From Hydrogenophilales bacterium 16-64-46 (GTDB lineage: Bacteria > Pseudomonadota > Gammaproteobacteria > Burkholderiales > Thiobacillaceae), in contig NCGY01000006.1 of the NCBI GenBank assembly GCA_002281775.1, positions 62,001 to 126,000 of the forward strand: a DNA stretch of 64,000 nucleotides, read 5' to 3'. Within the stretch, counting starts at the first letter, position 1. Each line of letters begins with the position of its first letter. This document shows positions 56,428 to 62,154 of the stretch, piece after piece. The notes beneath the pieces are model-generated. The model was not told the DNA's origin, did not search any database, and saw only the letters and a list, made by a program, of their open reading frames with translations. The position numbers and the translations under genes were made by a program.

Positions 56428-57198
56428 CTAGCGCCCTCGCGTCCCCGCGACAACCTGAAGCGCCGTCGCCGCCAGTGCGGCGGCGGCCAGGGTGACGACG
56501 ATGGCGGGGCCGGTGGGCCAGTCGGTCAGCGCGGACAAGACCAGACCGCCTGCGTAACCCGAGACGCCGATCAGCGGCGCCACCAGCAGCCAAATCCTGT
56601 CGCGCGTCAGGGTGGCCAGCGCTGGCAGGATCAGACTGGCGAACACCAGATAGATGCCGACCAGCTGCACCGACGCGGTGATCGCCAGCGCGAACAGCGC
56701 GTAGAAACCCGCGCTGCCGGGGCGGCCGCGTGCCACCAGCGGCCGCCAGGCGAGGCCGATGACTACTGTAATCACGGCGGCCACGGCAAGCTGGGTGTCC
56801 GTCACCCAGAGGATCTGGCCGACCAGCAGGGTCTGCAGGGCTTCGCCGCCGTGCGGGTCGCTCGCCATCAGCAGCGTGGCGAGGCTCGCGACCACGACAA
56901 AGGCCGAGCCGATCAACGCTTCCTGGCGCGCCGGCCAGCGGCGGTCGCAGGCCGCCAGCAGCGTGGCACCCACCAACGCCGCCGCGAAGGCCGTGGCCTG
57001 CACCTGCCAGCCGGTTTCCCAGCCGGCCGCGTGGGCGGCGATGACCCCCAGACCGGCGAACTGTGCGATGGCGAGGTCGAGAAACACGATGCCGCGCTGC
57101 AGGACCCGCCGTCCCAGCGGAATGTGTGTCGCCAGCACCAGCAGGCCGGCCAGCAGCGGCGCGAGCAGGAGCGCCGGATCGAGTGCGGCGGTGTTCAT
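56428..57198 (-). CDS. znuB: Zinc/manganese ABC transporter permease (ZnuB-like)
   Basis: Membrane subunit of a metal-type ABC importer (ABC-3 family, 256 aa, about eight helices). Typical segments are VFLDLAIAQFAGLGVIAAHA, GSAFVVVASLATLLMAS and VGIYLVFASLILPALATL. Its start overlaps the znuA stop (ATGA). The ATPase gene normally found in such operons is missing from this region, so the transporter needs an ATPase encoded elsewhere. Zinc is preferred because of the neighbours, but manganese cannot be excluded. Confidence 0.88.
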   Translation of the reverse strand: MNTAALDPALLLAPLLAGLLVLATHIPLGRRVLQRGIVFLDLAIAQFAGLGVIAAHAAGWETGWQVQATAFAAALVGATLLAACDRRWPARQEALIGSAFVVVASLATLLMASDPHGGEALQTLLVGQILWVTDTQLAVAAVITVVIGLAWRPLVARGRPGSAGFYALFALAITASVQLVGIYLVFASLILPALATLTRDRIWLLVAPLIGVSGYAGGLVLSALTDWPTGPAIVVTLAAAALAATALQVVAGTRGR

Positions 57199-58127
57199 GG
57201 TTTCAGTCCGGCCAGCAGCCGGGCGACGGTCGAATCGAACAGGCCGAAGAGATCGGTGCTCTGCGCGTCGCCGCCCACGGTGAACGGCAGCACGACCTGC
57301 GCGAGCCTGGCCTGGTCGGCGATCCAGGCGCTCGGCCGGGCGGGCTGGTAGGCCGCCCGCAACACCATCCTGGCCGGGGTGGCGGTCAGCCTGGCCTTCA
57401 CCTCGGCAAGCTGACCCAGACTGGGCGCGACACCCGGCTTGGCTTCGAGCACGGCGACGCGCTTCAGCCCCAGCCAGCGTTCCAGATACGGAAATGCGTC
57501 GTGCTGCACCACCACCGGCACGCCTTTGAGTGGGGCGGCCTGCGCGTCCCAGCGGGCGATGGCGGCTTGCCAGCGCGCGGCAAAGTCGGCCCAGCGCGCG
57601 CGGTAGTGCGCGGCTTCGCCCGGGTCGAGCGCGGCCATGCGCGCCGCGAGTGCCGCGCCGACGCGGCTGAAATTGCGCGGGTCGGTCTGGATGTGCGGGT
57701 TGCCGGCGGCGTGCACGTCACCGGCCGAGCGGTCGAGCACGGTAGGCTTTTCCAGCAGCGTGACGAAATCGGCGGCGAGGAATTGCCCTGGCTGGCCGGT
57801 CTGGATGGCGCGGTTGCCGGCGTCGGCCAGAATCACCGGCAGCCAGCCGATTTCCAGTTCGGCGCCGGTGCAGACCAGCAGGTCGGCACCGCGCGCACGC
57901 GCGATCAGCGAGGGGCGTGCTTCGATACGGTGCGGATCCTGGTAGGCGGTGGTGGCGGAGTAAACGCTCACCTTGTCGCCGCCGATGGCGCTGGCGAGTG
58001 CCCCCCATTCGGGTTCGCAGGCAAAGACCTTGAGATCGGCGTGTGCGCCGCCGCTCAAGGCCAGCCCGAGCACGAGGCCCAGGCGAAGCAGGAAACCCTG
58101 GCGGACAAGGATGCGATGGGTTTTCAT
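57195..58127 (-). CDS. znuA: Zinc ABC transporter substrate-binding protein (ZnuA-like)
   Basis: Periplasmic metal-binding protein of the cluster A-I group (310 aa). A signal peptide ends near LSGGAHA (residue 30). Likely metal ligands are the histidines in YQDPHRIEARPSL, GNPHIQTDP and VVQHDAFPYLERW, with a late acidic ligand. The His-rich loop of E. coli ZnuA is absent. It starts 11 bp after the porin gene and overlaps znuB. Confidence 0.9.
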   Translation of the reverse strand: MKTHRILVRQGFLLRLGLVLGLALSGGAHADLKVFACEPEWGALASAIGGDKVSVYSATTAYQDPHRIEARPSLIARARGADLLVCTGAELEIGWLPVILADAGNRAIQTGQPGQFLAADFVTLLEKPTVLDRSAGDVHAAGNPHIQTDPRNFSRVGAALAARMAALDPGEAAHYRARWADFAARWQAAIARWDAQAAPLKGVPVVVQHDAFPYLERWLGLKRVAVLEAKPGVAPSLGQLAEVKARLTATPARMVLRAAYQPARPSAWIADQARLAQVVLPFTVGGDAQSTDLFGLFDSTVARLLAGLKP

Positions 58128-58138
58128 GGCGAGTCTCC

Positions 58139-59506
58139 TCAGAATTTGTGCGCGCCGTGGCTGCCCAGGCTCATGATGTACTGCACGTAGAACTGGTTCT
58201 CGTCGACGCCTTCCTGCGCTTCGTCGCGCGAATATTGCAGGCGCAAGCGTGAGAATTCCGAGGGGCTGTAGTCGAGCATCAGGCTATGGCGGCGCGGATC
58301 GTAGTCGGCCAGCGTCTCGAAGGTATTGCCGGCGTCGCTGCCGTTGAAGTCGACGTCGCCGCGCAGCAGCTGGTCGTAGCGATAGCCCACGCGCCATTGC
58401 GGCATGAACTGGTAGACCGCTTGGGTATAGAAACCAGACTGGTCGGCAGCGAAGGGGGCGGTGAGCCCGCCGGTGCAGGGGCTGCCAAGCTCGGTCGTAT
58501 TACAGAACAGATCGCCTGATTCCTTGCGCTGGAAGTATTCGGCGGCGAACTTGAGGTTTTGCTGCGTGGGGTTGCCGTTGGGTGCCCATTTCCAGACGAA
58601 ATCGGCGAGCCAGGTGCGGCTCTTGCCGGAAAAGTCACCGGCGACTTCGATGTCGTTCACGTCGTGCGATTCGAATTCGCGGCCGCCCGGACGGGCACGC
58701 AGCCACGACAGGCCGGCGCGCCAGCTGTTCGATGCGCCGACGTCGCCGCCGACGTGGCCGAACAGCGCCACGCTGTTGGCCCCGTTGCCGCCGTTGTTGG
58801 TGGCGGGGAAGGCGTTGCCGTTGCCCAGTTCCGCGCCCAGCTCCAGGAAGGTGTCGGTCGGGGCCAGCCATTTCAGCTGCACGCCGTCCTGGCCATAGCC
58901 TTCGCCAAACAGCACCTCGTACACGAGATTGTTGGTGGCGAAATCCCAGGCGTGCGGGTGCTGCTCGTTCTGGTAGCCGATGCCGGAGCGGAAACGTCCG
59001 CCCTTTACCGACAGGCCCTGGCCGAGACTCGATGTCTGGAACCAGGCTTCTTCGACTTCAACCTCGCCGTCGGCCAGCACGGCATTCAGGTAGCCCCGGA
59101 AGTATGGGTCCACGCTGGCCGACAGCACCAGTTCGCTGCCGTCGACCGAAAAACCGCGTTCGCTGCCGCCGTGAGCGTGCGCGTCTGCGCCGAGAAAACC
59201 GCTGACGAAGCGTTCGTCGCGATCCTCCAGATGCGCGTATTTGCCCTGCAGGATGAGCGAGATATCAGGGTTGAAGCTGCGCCGGGTGGTGGGCGTGTCG
59301 GCAGCCGCTTCTGCTTGCACGGCCTGCGCCGCCACGCTTTCGGTTCTGGCTTCGGCCTGTTGCAGGCGCACTTCCAGCGCCTGGATGCGCGCCTCGTAGG
59401 CGGTTTTCATGTCTTTGAGTTCGGCGCGCAGGGCGTCGAGATCGGAATCGGCGTAAGCCGGAAAGGCAGCCGCGAGCGCGGCCGCGAGCAAGGCGGGACG
59501 GTACAT
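58139..59506 (-). CDS. Outer-membrane porin-like protein of the zinc cluster
   Basis: Predicted outer-membrane beta-barrel (455 aa). A signal peptide (to about residue 19, FPAYA) is followed by a coiled coil (LRAELKDMKTAYEARIQALE, residues about 25-60) and a linker. The barrel has alternating hydrophobic strands and ends in FYVQYIMSLGSHGAHKF with terminal phenylalanine, as barrel proteins do. A His-rich patch (GADAHAHGG) could bind metal. Lying between the DUF2946 gene and znuA, it is likely a passive or gated entry route for zinc; it has no TonB plug domain. I infer this role from context. Confidence 0.78.
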   Translation of the reverse strand: MYRPALLAAALAAAFPAYADSDLDALRAELKDMKTAYEARIQALEVRLQQAEARTESVAAQAVQAEAAADTPTTRRSFNPDISLILQGKYAHLEDRDERFVSGFLGADAHAHGGSERGFSVDGSELVLSASVDPYFRGYLNAVLADGEVEVEEAWFQTSSLGQGLSVKGGRFRSGIGYQNEQHPHAWDFATNNLVYEVLFGEGYGQDGVQLKWLAPTDTFLELGAELGNGNAFPATNNGGNGANSVALFGHVGGDVGASNSWRAGLSWLRARPGGREFESHDVNDIEVAGDFSGKSRTWLADFVWKWAPNGNPTQQNLKFAAEYFQRKESGDLFCNTTELGSPCTGGLTAPFAADQSGFYTQAVYQFMPQWRVGYRYDQLLRGDVDFNGSDAGNTFETLADYDPRRHSLMLDYSPSEFSRLRLQYSRDEAQEGVDENQFYVQYIMSLGSHGAHKF

Positions 59507-59560: not shown

Positions 59561-59860
59561 TCAGACGGAGTGGGCGGGCGGCGCGCGGGCGCTGGGGGTG
59601 GGACCGCCAGTTTGCGGCGAATACGGCAGGCGAACGGCCTGCGGAGCCGGTAAGGTGGCGAGGGGCAAGTCGGGCAGCGCGGCAGCCGGCAGGCCTGCCC
59701 CCAGCGAGGCCTGCCCCACGCACAGTTCGCAGACGGTGCCCGGCGCGTGATCGGCGTCGTGTTCGCCCAGGTGCGCCAGCGCGTGCGCGAAGGCCGCCGA
59801 CTGACCCAGGAACAGGGTCAGGGCAACGAGCCAGGCAGCGAGGAGGCGACGGGCGGGCAT
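59561..59860 (-). CDS. DUF2946-like small exported His/Cys protein
   Basis: Exported 99-aa protein. A signal-like helix (residues about 6-24, LLAAWLVALTLFLGQSAAFA) is followed by HALAHLGEHDADHAPGTVCELC, a histidine and cysteine cluster that can bind metal, then a Pro-rich tail. This pattern fits DUF2946 family proteins found beside metal-transport genes. It would be the first gene of the porin-znuA-znuB unit. The MITE-like element ends 11 bp upstream of its ATG, and no ribosome-binding site is evident in the remaining spacer. Confidence 0.72.
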   Translation of the reverse strand: MPARRLLAAWLVALTLFLGQSAAFAHALAHLGEHDADHAPGTVCELCVGQASLGAGLPAAALPDLPLATLPAPQAVRLPYSPQTGGPTPSARAPPAHSV

Positions 59861-59871
59861 GGGCGGATTCT

Positions 59872-60099
59872 AGTACGACAACCCATAAGTTTCGCTATGT
59901 TCGACGCGCCCCGCATCGCCGATTGCTTTGTACCCGCGAGGGGTAGGCCGGATTCGTACAGCCGCTCAAGCGGCAACGACTCCGCTCTCGCTCATCCTCG
60001 CAACAGCTACGGCTACGGCTATGGCTGCGGTTCGCTTCGCGCACCCGGCGCGCGGATGCGCGTCTCGGCATGGTCGCAAACTTATGGGTTGTCGTACTA
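59872..60099. mobile_element. MITE-like element with 20-bp terminal inverted repeats and TA target duplication
   Basis: The left terminal repeat GTACGACAACCCATAAGTTT (59874-59893) is perfectly inverted at 60078-60097. The 224-bp element is flanked on both sides by TA (59872-59873 and 60098-60099). No transposase frame fits inside. The interior holds four near-identical hexamers (GCTACG, GCTACG, GCTATG, GCTGCG at 60006-60029). TA duplication is typical of IS630/Tc1-type elements, so this is probably a non-autonomous relative. It sits exactly at the yidD stop codon, which is rebuilt from TA plus the first base of the element. Confidence 0.85.
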
Positions 60100-60330
60100 G
60101 CGCTTCTCCACCGGCGGCACCGGGTCGTAGCCGTGGGCGCAGCCGGGCCGGCAGCGGCCTATGCGTTTGGCGGCCAGCCACGCGCCCCGGCGCGCACCGT
60201 GTTTTTCGATGGCTTCCTTGCCGTATTCCGAGCAGGTGGGCAGGTAGCGGCACTGCCGGCCCAGCCAGGGCGACAGCACCAGCTGATAGACGCGGATGGC
60301 CCCGATCAGCACGCGTTGCGCAAGATTCAT
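60097..60330 (-). CDS. yidD: Membrane protein insertion efficiency factor YidD
   Basis: Small inner-membrane-associated protein (77 aa) that helps YidC-dependent insertion. The family signature is complete: AIRVYQLVLSPWLGRQCRYL, PTCSEYGKEAIEKHG, WLAAKRIGRCRPGCAHGYDPVPP. Its start overlaps the cobW stop by 4 bp. Its stop codon is at the insertion point of the MITE-like element; deleting the element in silico leaves the same protein, so it is not truncated. Its place beside cobW and not next to rnpA/yidC is unusual. Confidence 0.93.
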   Translation of the reverse strand: MNLAQRVLIGAIRVYQLVLSPWLGRQCRYLPTCSEYGKEAIEKHGARRGAWLAAKRIGRCRPGCAHGYDPVPPVEKR

Positions 60331-61406
60331 TGCGGGGCCTCGTGTGAAGGCGGCGCAACGAGGCCGGCCGCGCCGGAAAAGTCGGCGAGCAGTTTCTCGA
60401 CAAAGGCCGGGTCGAGGTCGCGCGTGATGAAGACGAAGCGGCTTGCCCGGGGGTGACCAGACCCGGCATCGTCGTCGGGCCAGGCGTCAAGTTTCACCTC
60501 GGGGTAGAGCACGTGCTGCACGCCGTGCAGTACCACCGGCTGCGTTTCGCCGGCCAGGTTCACCAGCGCCTTGAAGCGCAGCAGGTTTTCGGCGCGAAAG
60601 CTGGTGAGCATGGACAGCGCCGCGTGCAGGCCATAGCGATCCAGCGGCGTGTCGATCACCACGGAAAACGCGCGGATGCGGCTGTCATGCGCAGGGACGC
60701 TCGGCCGTGCGCCCGGCAGGCCGGCACGCGCGGGCCGGTAGCGGCTGGCCTGCAGCCAGCGGGTGACGTCGGCCGATTTCGTCTCGGCGTTCCACAGCCC
60801 CAGGTTCTGGATGCGGGCCGGGTCGACTTCGCCGTTGACGACCGTGACGATGTCGGCTGCCGGGTTCAGCGTCGCCAGCCGGGCGGTCAGCGCGGCCACC
60901 GTGTCGGCCGGCGCAAGGTCGGTCTTGGTGAGCAACAGGCGGTCGGCCACCGCCACCTGCTTCACTGCCTCGAAGTGTTCGTCGAGCTGGCCCATGCCGA
61001 ACAGCGCGTCGACCGTGGTCACCACGCCGTCGAGGCGGAAGCGCGCACGCACCCAGCGGTCGTTGAGCAGGTTGTCGAGTATGGGGGCGGGGTCGGCGAT
61101 GCCGGTGGTTTCGATGATCACGCGCTCGAATGCCGGCACGTCGCCCTTCTGGCGTGCCATCCACAGGTTCTTCAGCGTGGGCGACAGCGTGCCGGAAATG
61201 GTGCAGCAGACGCAGCCGCCCGAGAGCAGCGCCATCGGACCGTCCATTTTTTCCAGCAACTGGTGGTCGAGCGCGACTTCGCCGAACTCGTTCATCAGGA
61301 TCGCGGTGCGCGGCAGCGTGCGCACGATGTGGTTGAGCACCGTGGTCTTGCCGCTGCCGAGAAAGCCGGTGAGCAGGGTGACGGGGAGGGGTGAATCGGT
61401 GGGCAT
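60327..61406 (-). CDS. COG0523 (CobW/ZigA) family GTPase metallochaperone
   Basis: G3E-family GTPase (359 aa) of the CobW/YjiA group, often a zinc chaperone under Zur control. The P-loop is GFLGSGKTTVLNH, switch region NEFGEVALDHQLLE, the metal-binding motif SGGCVCC, then IIETTGIADP and the guanine-specificity motif LTKTDLA. The C-terminal domain (from about residue 230) has VVLHGVQHVLYPE. There is no cobalamin operon nearby, and the znu, dksA and porin neighbours point to zinc. It starts 33 bp downstream of the palindromic element. Confidence 0.92.
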   Translation of the reverse strand: MPTDSPLPVTLLTGFLGSGKTTVLNHIVRTLPRTAILMNEFGEVALDHQLLEKMDGPMALLSGGCVCCTISGTLSPTLKNLWMARQKGDVPAFERVIIETTGIADPAPILDNLLNDRWVRARFRLDGVVTTVDALFGMGQLDEHFEAVKQVAVADRLLLTKTDLAPADTVAALTARLATLNPAADIVTVVNGEVDPARIQNLGLWNAETKSADVTRWLQASRYRPARAGLPGARPSVPAHDSRIRAFSVVIDTPLDRYGLHAALSMLTSFRAENLLRFKALVNLAGETQPVVLHGVQHVLYPEVKLDAWPDDDAGSGHPRASRFVFITRDLDPAFVEKLLADFSGAAGLVAPPSHEAPQ

Positions 61407-61438
61407 GGGGGCGGCGGGCGGGAATCGGGCATTCTAGG

Positions 61439-61546
61439 TGTGATCGCTCAATAGCGTGTTCACTCGGGACTTACCCGGAGAATTGGGGCTGCGAAAGCAA
61501 ACCAGTCCCGGAGCCCCTCTTGTGCACAAGCTATTGAGCGATCACA
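61439..61546. repeat. 108-bp palindromic element upstream of cobW
   Basis: Ends are perfect 17-bp inverted repeats (TGTGATCGCTCAATAGC at 61439-61455 and its complement at 61530-61546), continuing inward for about 10 bp with two mismatches. The core has nested inverted pairs such as GGGGCT/AGCCCC and GGGAC/GTCCC. No target duplication is visible. It abuts the truncated Fur-like frame on one side and is 33 bp from cobW on the other. It could be a MITE, the remains of a deleted insertion sequence, or a structured regulatory element. Confidence 0.72.
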
Positions 61547-61640
61547 GCTGGGCCAGCACCTGGACGCGCGCGGCCGTGGCAACAGCCCCGCGCGCCTCGA
61601 TGAGACGGGCGGCGGTGGCGGAGAGAGCGGAAAGGGCCAT
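61542..61640 (-). pseudogene. Fur/Zur-family regulator remnant (N-terminal fragment)
   Basis: A 32-codon frame starts at ATG 61640 and stops at a TGA formed by the edge of the palindromic element. The residues ARLIEARGAVATAARVQVLA look like the first helices of Fur-family regulators, which often read L-x-x-A-G-x-x-A-T-x-x-R-V-x-V-L. Full proteins are about 150 aa; the rest is not found on the far side of the element. A zur-type gene would fit this zinc locus. The fragment is short, so the assignment is an inference. Confidence 0.5.
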
Positions 61641-61734: not shown

Positions 61735-62154
61735 TCAGGCGTGCAGTTTTTCCATTTTTTCGTGGCGTTCCTGCGCCTCGATCGAGTACTCGGCGGTGGG
61801 GCGGGCCAGCAGGCGCGGCAGGCCGATGGGGTCGCCGGTTTCGAGGCAGTAGCCGAACTCGCCGGATTCGATGCGCGCGAGCGCCTTGTTGATTTTCTTG
61901 AGCAGCTTGCGCTCGCGGTCGCGCACGCGCTGTTCCAGCATGTTTTCCTCTTCGACCGTGGCGCGATCGTTGGGGTCGGCGAAGTTCTCGTTTTCCTTCA
62001 GGTGCTCGCCGGTGTCGGCGGCATTGGCGAGCATCTCGTCGCGCAGGGTTTCGAGACGGGCACGAAAGAATTCCAGCTGCGCCTTGTTCATGTAATCCGA
62101 ATCCGGCATTTTCAGCAGGGCGGCTTCGGTCAGGGGTTTGGTTGATGCGGGCAT
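61735..62154 (-). CDS. dksA: RNA polymerase-binding transcription factor DksA (zinc-finger-degenerate)
   Basis: Acts with ppGpp in the RNA polymerase secondary channel to adjust transcription to nutrient state. The coiled coil carries the tip acids in FADPNDRATVEEE (D60, D63). The zinc finger is degenerate: C103-x2-T106-x17-S124-x2-A127 in place of four cysteines, as in zinc-independent DksA forms. 139 aa, otherwise normal. It precedes the Fur remnant and cobW on the minus strand but has its own terminator, and is divergent from the membrane-fusion gene. Whether a four-cysteine DksA exists elsewhere in the genome is unknown. Confidence 0.93.
   Translation of the reverse strand: MPASTKPLTEAALLKMPDSDYMNKAQLEFFRARLETLRDEMLANAADTGEHLKENENFADPNDRATVEEENMLEQRVRDRERKLLKKINKALARIESGEFGYCLETGDPIGLPRLLARPTAEYSIEAQERHEKMEKLHA

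Follow-up and report, generated by a model that had tools for sequence, protein, structure and literature searches.

The minus strand of the window (the whole 64,000-nucleotide stretch that was analysed) carries, in order, cobW, yidD, a mobile element, a DUF2946-like gene, a porin-like gene, a znuA-like gene and a permease gene (Table 1). The assignment of the last two to the znuA and znuB-type permease families holds, and their best NCBIfam models are those of the zinc proteins AztC and AztB, both scoring below their cut-offs. The names given to the two preceding genes proved weaker than stated: DUF2946 corresponds to a match of 15.2 bits against a cut-off of 23.7, and the porin-like protein has only sub-threshold matches. 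A single motif for a Zur-like box had no match in the 64-kb window. The DksA encoded at 61735-62154 apparently keeps, judged by eye, one of the four zinc-finger cysteines (FGYCLETGD...PTAEYSIEA); DksA variants of this kind are described as zinc-independent.

A second inverted-repeat mini-element, with 28-nt arms matching at 89%, lies directly upstream of cobW at 61436-61549. Stretches of 79 nt matching it are present in three other genomes (G018, G042 and G008), and those in G018 and G042 adjoin an IS481-type transposase (PF13011). Those ends of its relatives that were read have NCTAGN directly outside, and the window copy reads CCTAGAAT where it faces cobW. An interrupted native -10 box upstream of cobW as well was considered and dropped, as TANAAT is absent from the 70 nt before the start in all 28 relatives with enough sequence.

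Table 1. Features at the yidD/DUF2946 junction and in its neighbourhood (window coordinates).
Feature	Position	Strand	Remarks
ABC-3 metal permease, ZnuB/AztB-like	56428..57198	-	PF00950
ZnuA-like periplasmic metal-binding protein	57195..58127	-	PF01297
Porin-like gene	58139..59506	-	455 aa; no Pfam family at E<=0.001; name from the original prediction
DUF2946-like gene	59561..59860	-	99 aa; leaderless mRNA start predicted; ATG 59858-59860
Predicted -10 box TAGAAT	59867..59872	-	6 nt before ATG; intact via duplication
Left arm	59870..59892	+	perfect 23-nt inverted repeat, CTAG included
MITE copy plus flanking TA duplications	59871..60099	.	225 bp between duplications; CTAG at 59870-59873 and 60097-60100
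Best -35-like hexamer from element end, GCGAAA	59890..59895	-	3 of 6; 17-nt spacer; weak
57-bp module	59931..59987	+	absent from 28 other complete copies; genus-wide repeat
Right arm	60078..60100	+	perfect 23-nt inverted repeat
yidD	60097..60330	-	PF01809; TAG stop 60097-60099 inside CTAG target
CobW-family GTPase	60327..61406	-	upstream neighbour of yidD

The element is a non-coding MITE without a transposase gene, lying between two CTAG copies (59870-59873 and 60097-60100). Its two arms are 100% complementary and 185 nt apart. The original prediction had described a 224-bp element with perfect 20-bp terminal inverted repeats (TIRs) and a TA duplication, inserted exactly at the yidD stop codon. 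The placement at the stop, the perfection of the repeats and the CTAG/TA target are all borne out, while the arms extend to 23 nt with the CTAG included, and the element measures 225 bp (59873-60097) when TA is taken as the duplication. The duplicated target would be either the TA inside the CTAG or the CTAG itself, the same letters being compatible with a 4-bp CTAG duplication. As RNA, the element is predicted to form a long hairpin (-121 kcal/mol; fold z -7.2); the search for known RNA families returned one sub-threshold match, outside the element.

The terminal repeats recur in the same genome, where a second copy of the arms lies on contig C27 (172904-173063). Of 56 Thiobacillus genomes, 7 contain them, at 41 places in total when up to 3 mismatches are allowed. 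These places include one degenerate place (C37 of G000) and one copy split across contigs C19 and C75 of G040. Seven further places were located in other bacteria: five in G100, one of them a lone TIR, and one each in a Propionivibrio and a Betaproteobacteria record. The loci analysed numbered 41, namely the window and 40 others, which include two variant copies; two places at contig ends (G033 C76 and C77) lie outside this set. A degenerate single end (L097), the two variant copies without a TIR within 4 mismatches (L099 and L113) and a contig-end duplicate of L116 (L122) were excluded, leaving 37 copies, 29 of them with both ends, and, after the orthologous L131 and L132 were merged, 35 independent insertions. 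In the complete copies the TIRs of the two ends agree at 15-19 of 19 positions, and just inside the four target letters all 29 start with TAC and 28 end with GTA. CTAG is found on both sides in 19 of the 29 and not in the other 10. The family displays two attributes of a MITE, being short and non-coding with perfect or near-perfect terminal inverted repeats, and having several dispersed copies as well as empty sites that hold one target copy.

Two side observations concern the ends. All five complete copies of G006 (L100-L104) carry TACCTC in place of TACGAC at both ends, as if the ends tracked an altered transposase or all five went back to one founder copy. One insertion shared by two genomes (L108 and L131) is flanked by CCTAG/CTAGG in one and by CCTGG/CCAGG in the other, as if CTAG decayed toward CCWGG after insertion, a change that we take to be compatible with very-short-patch repair.

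The window copy is atypical in length, with 223 bp between TIR tips against 158-161 bp in the other 28 complete copies (231 against 166-169 bp with both CTAGs included), because it contains, in an alignment of the 29 copies, the 57-bp module and about 6 bp of short repeat. A query with the whole element matched 52 of the 56 genus genomes, many among the matches listed being to the 57-bp module. This module is also seen as tandem arrays and as part of a second inverted-repeat family. One such array, with a period of about 56 bp, lies at G024:C146:32574-32968, and in five loci (L035-L037, L039 and L040) the module is found, single or repeated, near what by eye is apparently the same gene. Members of the second TIR family (L018-L034 and L097) are about 281 bp long, have the ends CCTARAAACCGCAGTTG and often contain an open frame of about 90 codons that ends in SNCGF-stop or similar.

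Alignment with relatives identified the empty site. The DUF2946-like protein had matches in 49 of the 56 genomes, and yidD lies directly upstream of the DUF2946-like gene in all 30 loci analysed, one of which is the window's own; the junction is free of the element in all 29 relatives read. With further copies elsewhere and an empty site in relatives, the insertion itself stands as originally proposed. Two other insertions can be compared with sister loci that are 98% identical over the flank compared: L107 with L214 and L111 with L226, both sisters being empty and holding a single CTAG. L111 mirrors the layout of the window: its CTAG serves as the stop codon of a predicted gene, and the next start follows 9 nt later.

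The CTAG target is rare. In 445.6 kb it occurs 125 times, whereas base composition would predict about 1473 occurrences and trinucleotide frequencies 370, a shortfall of about 12-fold relative to base composition. With genes called by an in-house codon-score script, which was used for all CTAG and stop counts, 59 of these sites fall within genes, 52 in intergenic DNA and 14 on stops; removal of the window's own two CTAGs from the baseline gave 59, 51 and 13 of 123 for the test. Among the 35 independent insertions, 23 sit on a predicted in-frame TAG stop and 12 are intergenic, compared with 13 stops among the 64 non-interior CTAGs (Fisher p 1e-5). Among the 28 independent copies with both ends, 17 fell on a stop once the flanks were joined, 3 were crossed by a frame and 8 showed neither; the 17 of 28 again exceed 13 of 64 (p 2e-4). 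With flanking CTAGs of the same loci as the reference, 7 of 19 of which are on stops, the excess was borderline for 23/35 (p 0.05) and not significant for 17/28 (p 0.14). The excess on stop codons is therefore clear relative to CTAGs in general and not secure relative to CTAGs of the same loci. The three frame-crossed copies (L105, L115 and L130) lack CTAG at the left end, and a gene frame crosses their joined site if those letters are retained, so the stop in these copies may derive from the element. Opposite the stop of L103 stands CTGG. In L122 (the same copy as L116) and L128 the frame of the neighbouring gene extends 15 nt into the element, and with the flanks joined the L128 frame ends on CTAG. 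Outside the genus, 3 of 7 places are on a stop.

A CTAG target that is rare in this GC-rich genus would account for repeated landing on TAG stops, as the CTAGs outside gene interiors would be those of intergenic DNA and of TAG stops. The pattern may equally reflect survivorship, whereby insertion into CTAG is random and the copies that entered genes or promoters were lost, an explanation to which we give a nearly even chance. No predicted gene spans the element as it stands in any of the 35 insertions, yet 59 of 123 CTAGs lie inside genes, and the weak outcome of the same-locus comparison points in the same direction. Against survivorship as the whole explanation, intergenic CTAGs outnumber stop CTAGs by 51 to 13, yet they hold only 12 of the 35 insertions. 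Whatever shaped the pattern, most other copies examined also sit on predicted stops, so the neat position at yidD is probably a recurrent habit of the element, neither special to the zinc operon nor a zinc switch.

The insertion was originally thought to have moved the zinc genes away from their upstream signals. On the minus strand the downstream CTAG continues as CTAGAATCCGCCC-ATG, and both the yidD stop codon and the TAGAAT-N6-ATG string are intact after the insertion. The string is native: 27 of the 29 relatives read have TARAAT (TAGAAT or TAAAAT) followed by 6 or 7 nt and the ATG, the two without it being L057 and L063, and in 25 of the 27 its first three letters are the yidD stop. A -10 hexamer conserved at 6-9 nt before the start codon is the arrangement of a leaderless promoter. 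Consistent with this, TANAAT lies 6-9 nt upstream of 9 of 308 predicted ATG starts, 10-22 nt upstream of none and 23-34 nt upstream of 18, and the corresponding numbers for 2070 internal in-frame ATGs are 0, 1 and 0. In the part that we consulted of a transcript-mapping study on the betaproteobacterium Burkholderia cenocepacia, TAnAAT is the -10 and is present directly upstream of leaderless genes (PMC4603805). Because of the junction conservation, the profile of start and internal ATGs and this parallel, the TAGAAT at the junction is read as the putative -10 of a leaderless promoter. Another member of the family, L107, has also inserted into a TAGAAT-N7-ATG string; among its 12 loci compared, one being its own, 9 of the 11 relatives read have TARAAT-N7-ATG.

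The conserved hexamer could instead be a by-product of stop codon and spacing, the native gene being coupled to yidD translation and the insertion breaking that coupling. In 26 of 29 relatives 8-10 nt separate the yidD stop from the ATG, a spacing that would allow coupling. Nevertheless, in L052 and L065 the stop lies 18 and 23 nt from the ATG and the TAAAAT/TAGAAT stays 7 nt before it, which suggests that TARAAT has a function of its own, because its spacing to the ATG is retained though the stop lies further upstream. The presence of TANAAT at 6-9 nt in 9 of 308 starts against 0 of 2070 internal ATGs likewise argues against this alternative to a promoter box, and we regard this alternative as quite improbable. 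With the leaderless promoter as the preferred reading, the missing ribosome-binding site also falls into place: its absence from the native leader was correctly noted, and it is not a consequence of the insertion because the relatives' junction, too, is TARAAT-N6/7-ATG.

The insertion is predicted to have changed only the DNA upstream of the -10, with the hexamer, the discriminator and the ATG all surviving, so the proposed displacement from upstream signals is not supported for genes whose relatives have this box of their own in 27 of 29 cases. Matches to TTGACA upstream of the -10 number 1-3 of 6 in the native loci and 3 of 6 for the hexamer supplied by the element end, neither having a clear -35. 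That the element severed the zinc-like genes from an operon promoter and governs them now by means of a promoter or terminator that it carries appears unlikely. The element does separate yidD from the DUF2946-like gene, and a long hairpin is predicted for its RNA, yet the search of 59800-60200 for sites resembling a promoter or terminator found none, a consensus scan gave no sigma-70 site there, and the TARAAT-N6/7-ATG string of the element-free relatives implies that transcription of the downstream genes probably begins at a site of their own.

We thus favor, with a probability of roughly 0.7, a MITE inserted between two CTAGs at a site that held both the yidD stop and a predicted -10 box, the likely duplication of the target having left both intact. 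A transposase acting in trans would have moved the element into the CTAG of CTAGAAT, and duplication would have preserved both the hexamer at -10 and the stop of yidD, TAGAAT presumably serving as the -10 for the DUF2946-like gene and likely also for the genes behind it. The insertion would then swap only the spacer and the -35 region for the element's inverted repeat, and the long hairpin would enter any read-through transcript from cobW-yidD. As only the spacer and -35 region would be replaced and a hairpin added, internal initiation was likely kept at altered strength and read-through would be weakened. The signal loss first proposed would thereby be largely undone by the duplication, and the zinc context is probably incidental.

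The copies form a genuine MITE family whose landing sites follow an orderly pattern. More tentatively, and with the odds somewhat against it, CTAG may act as a self-healing dock: the family would settle on TAG stops and C-TAGAAT boxes, both kept whole, and so insert hairpins at gene ends and rewire the upstream half of leaderless promoters while breaking no protein, in the present case within a zinc-uptake-like cluster. What looks like a coincidence, an insertion exactly on a stop codon, would become a countable rule, in which a rare CTAG and an element that duplicates it yield harmless docking at stops and -10 boxes. If the promoter reading is right, L107 and L214, at 98% identity, and the window locus and its relatives form natural pairs in which the exchange is confined to DNA lying upstream of a leaderless -10, and the contribution of the -35 and spacer to leaderless promoters becomes testable.

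An IS630-type transposase with the same ends had been suggested as the source. PF13358 matches were confined to 2 of the 7 carrier genomes (draft assemblies), G000 being without any, and none was found with these ends. Around L136 and L137, the two loci read at full length, no pair of the present TIRs was found, L136 having another candidate TIR, ACACAATAATTACGAGACAT; L138 is short, apparently cut by a contig end. No autonomous parent emerged from the 44 stretches with exact TIR matches across the contig collection, from an order-wide pattern search with matches in 5 of 399 genomes or from a partner search around the TIRs in 10 loci, and PF13011 in 11 genomes, whose draft assemblies may miss a parent, included no transposase with the present TIRs. 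In the portions of the open-licence literature covered by our search, there was no description of the present MITE family or of stop-codon docking.

Among known systems, an IS630-associated composite transposon reportedly transposes preferentially to the TA in 5'-CTAG-3', to go by the title of one study. The present element is compatible with the IS630/Tc1-mariner pattern, in which IS630, ISY100 and related MITEs duplicate a TA target on insertion, according to the sections consulted of PMC2170065, although no DDE_3 transposase with the present TIRs was found in the 7 draft carrier genomes. MITEPsy1 of Pseudomonas syringae is IS5-like and 100 bp long, its TIR is unlike that of the present element by eye, and the accessible part of its description makes no mention of landing on stop codons or -10 boxes. 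IS481 elements duplicate NCTAGN with a variable inner base, a duplication that was rejected for the present family, in which all 29 copies have T as the left inner base and A as the right one and the TIR does not begin with TGTG. Nevertheless, they share with it a CTAG-centred target, and the transposase genes of ISLxc2 and ISLxx4, as presented in the excerpt consulted of PMC2516522, have their stop inside the NCTAGN host site.
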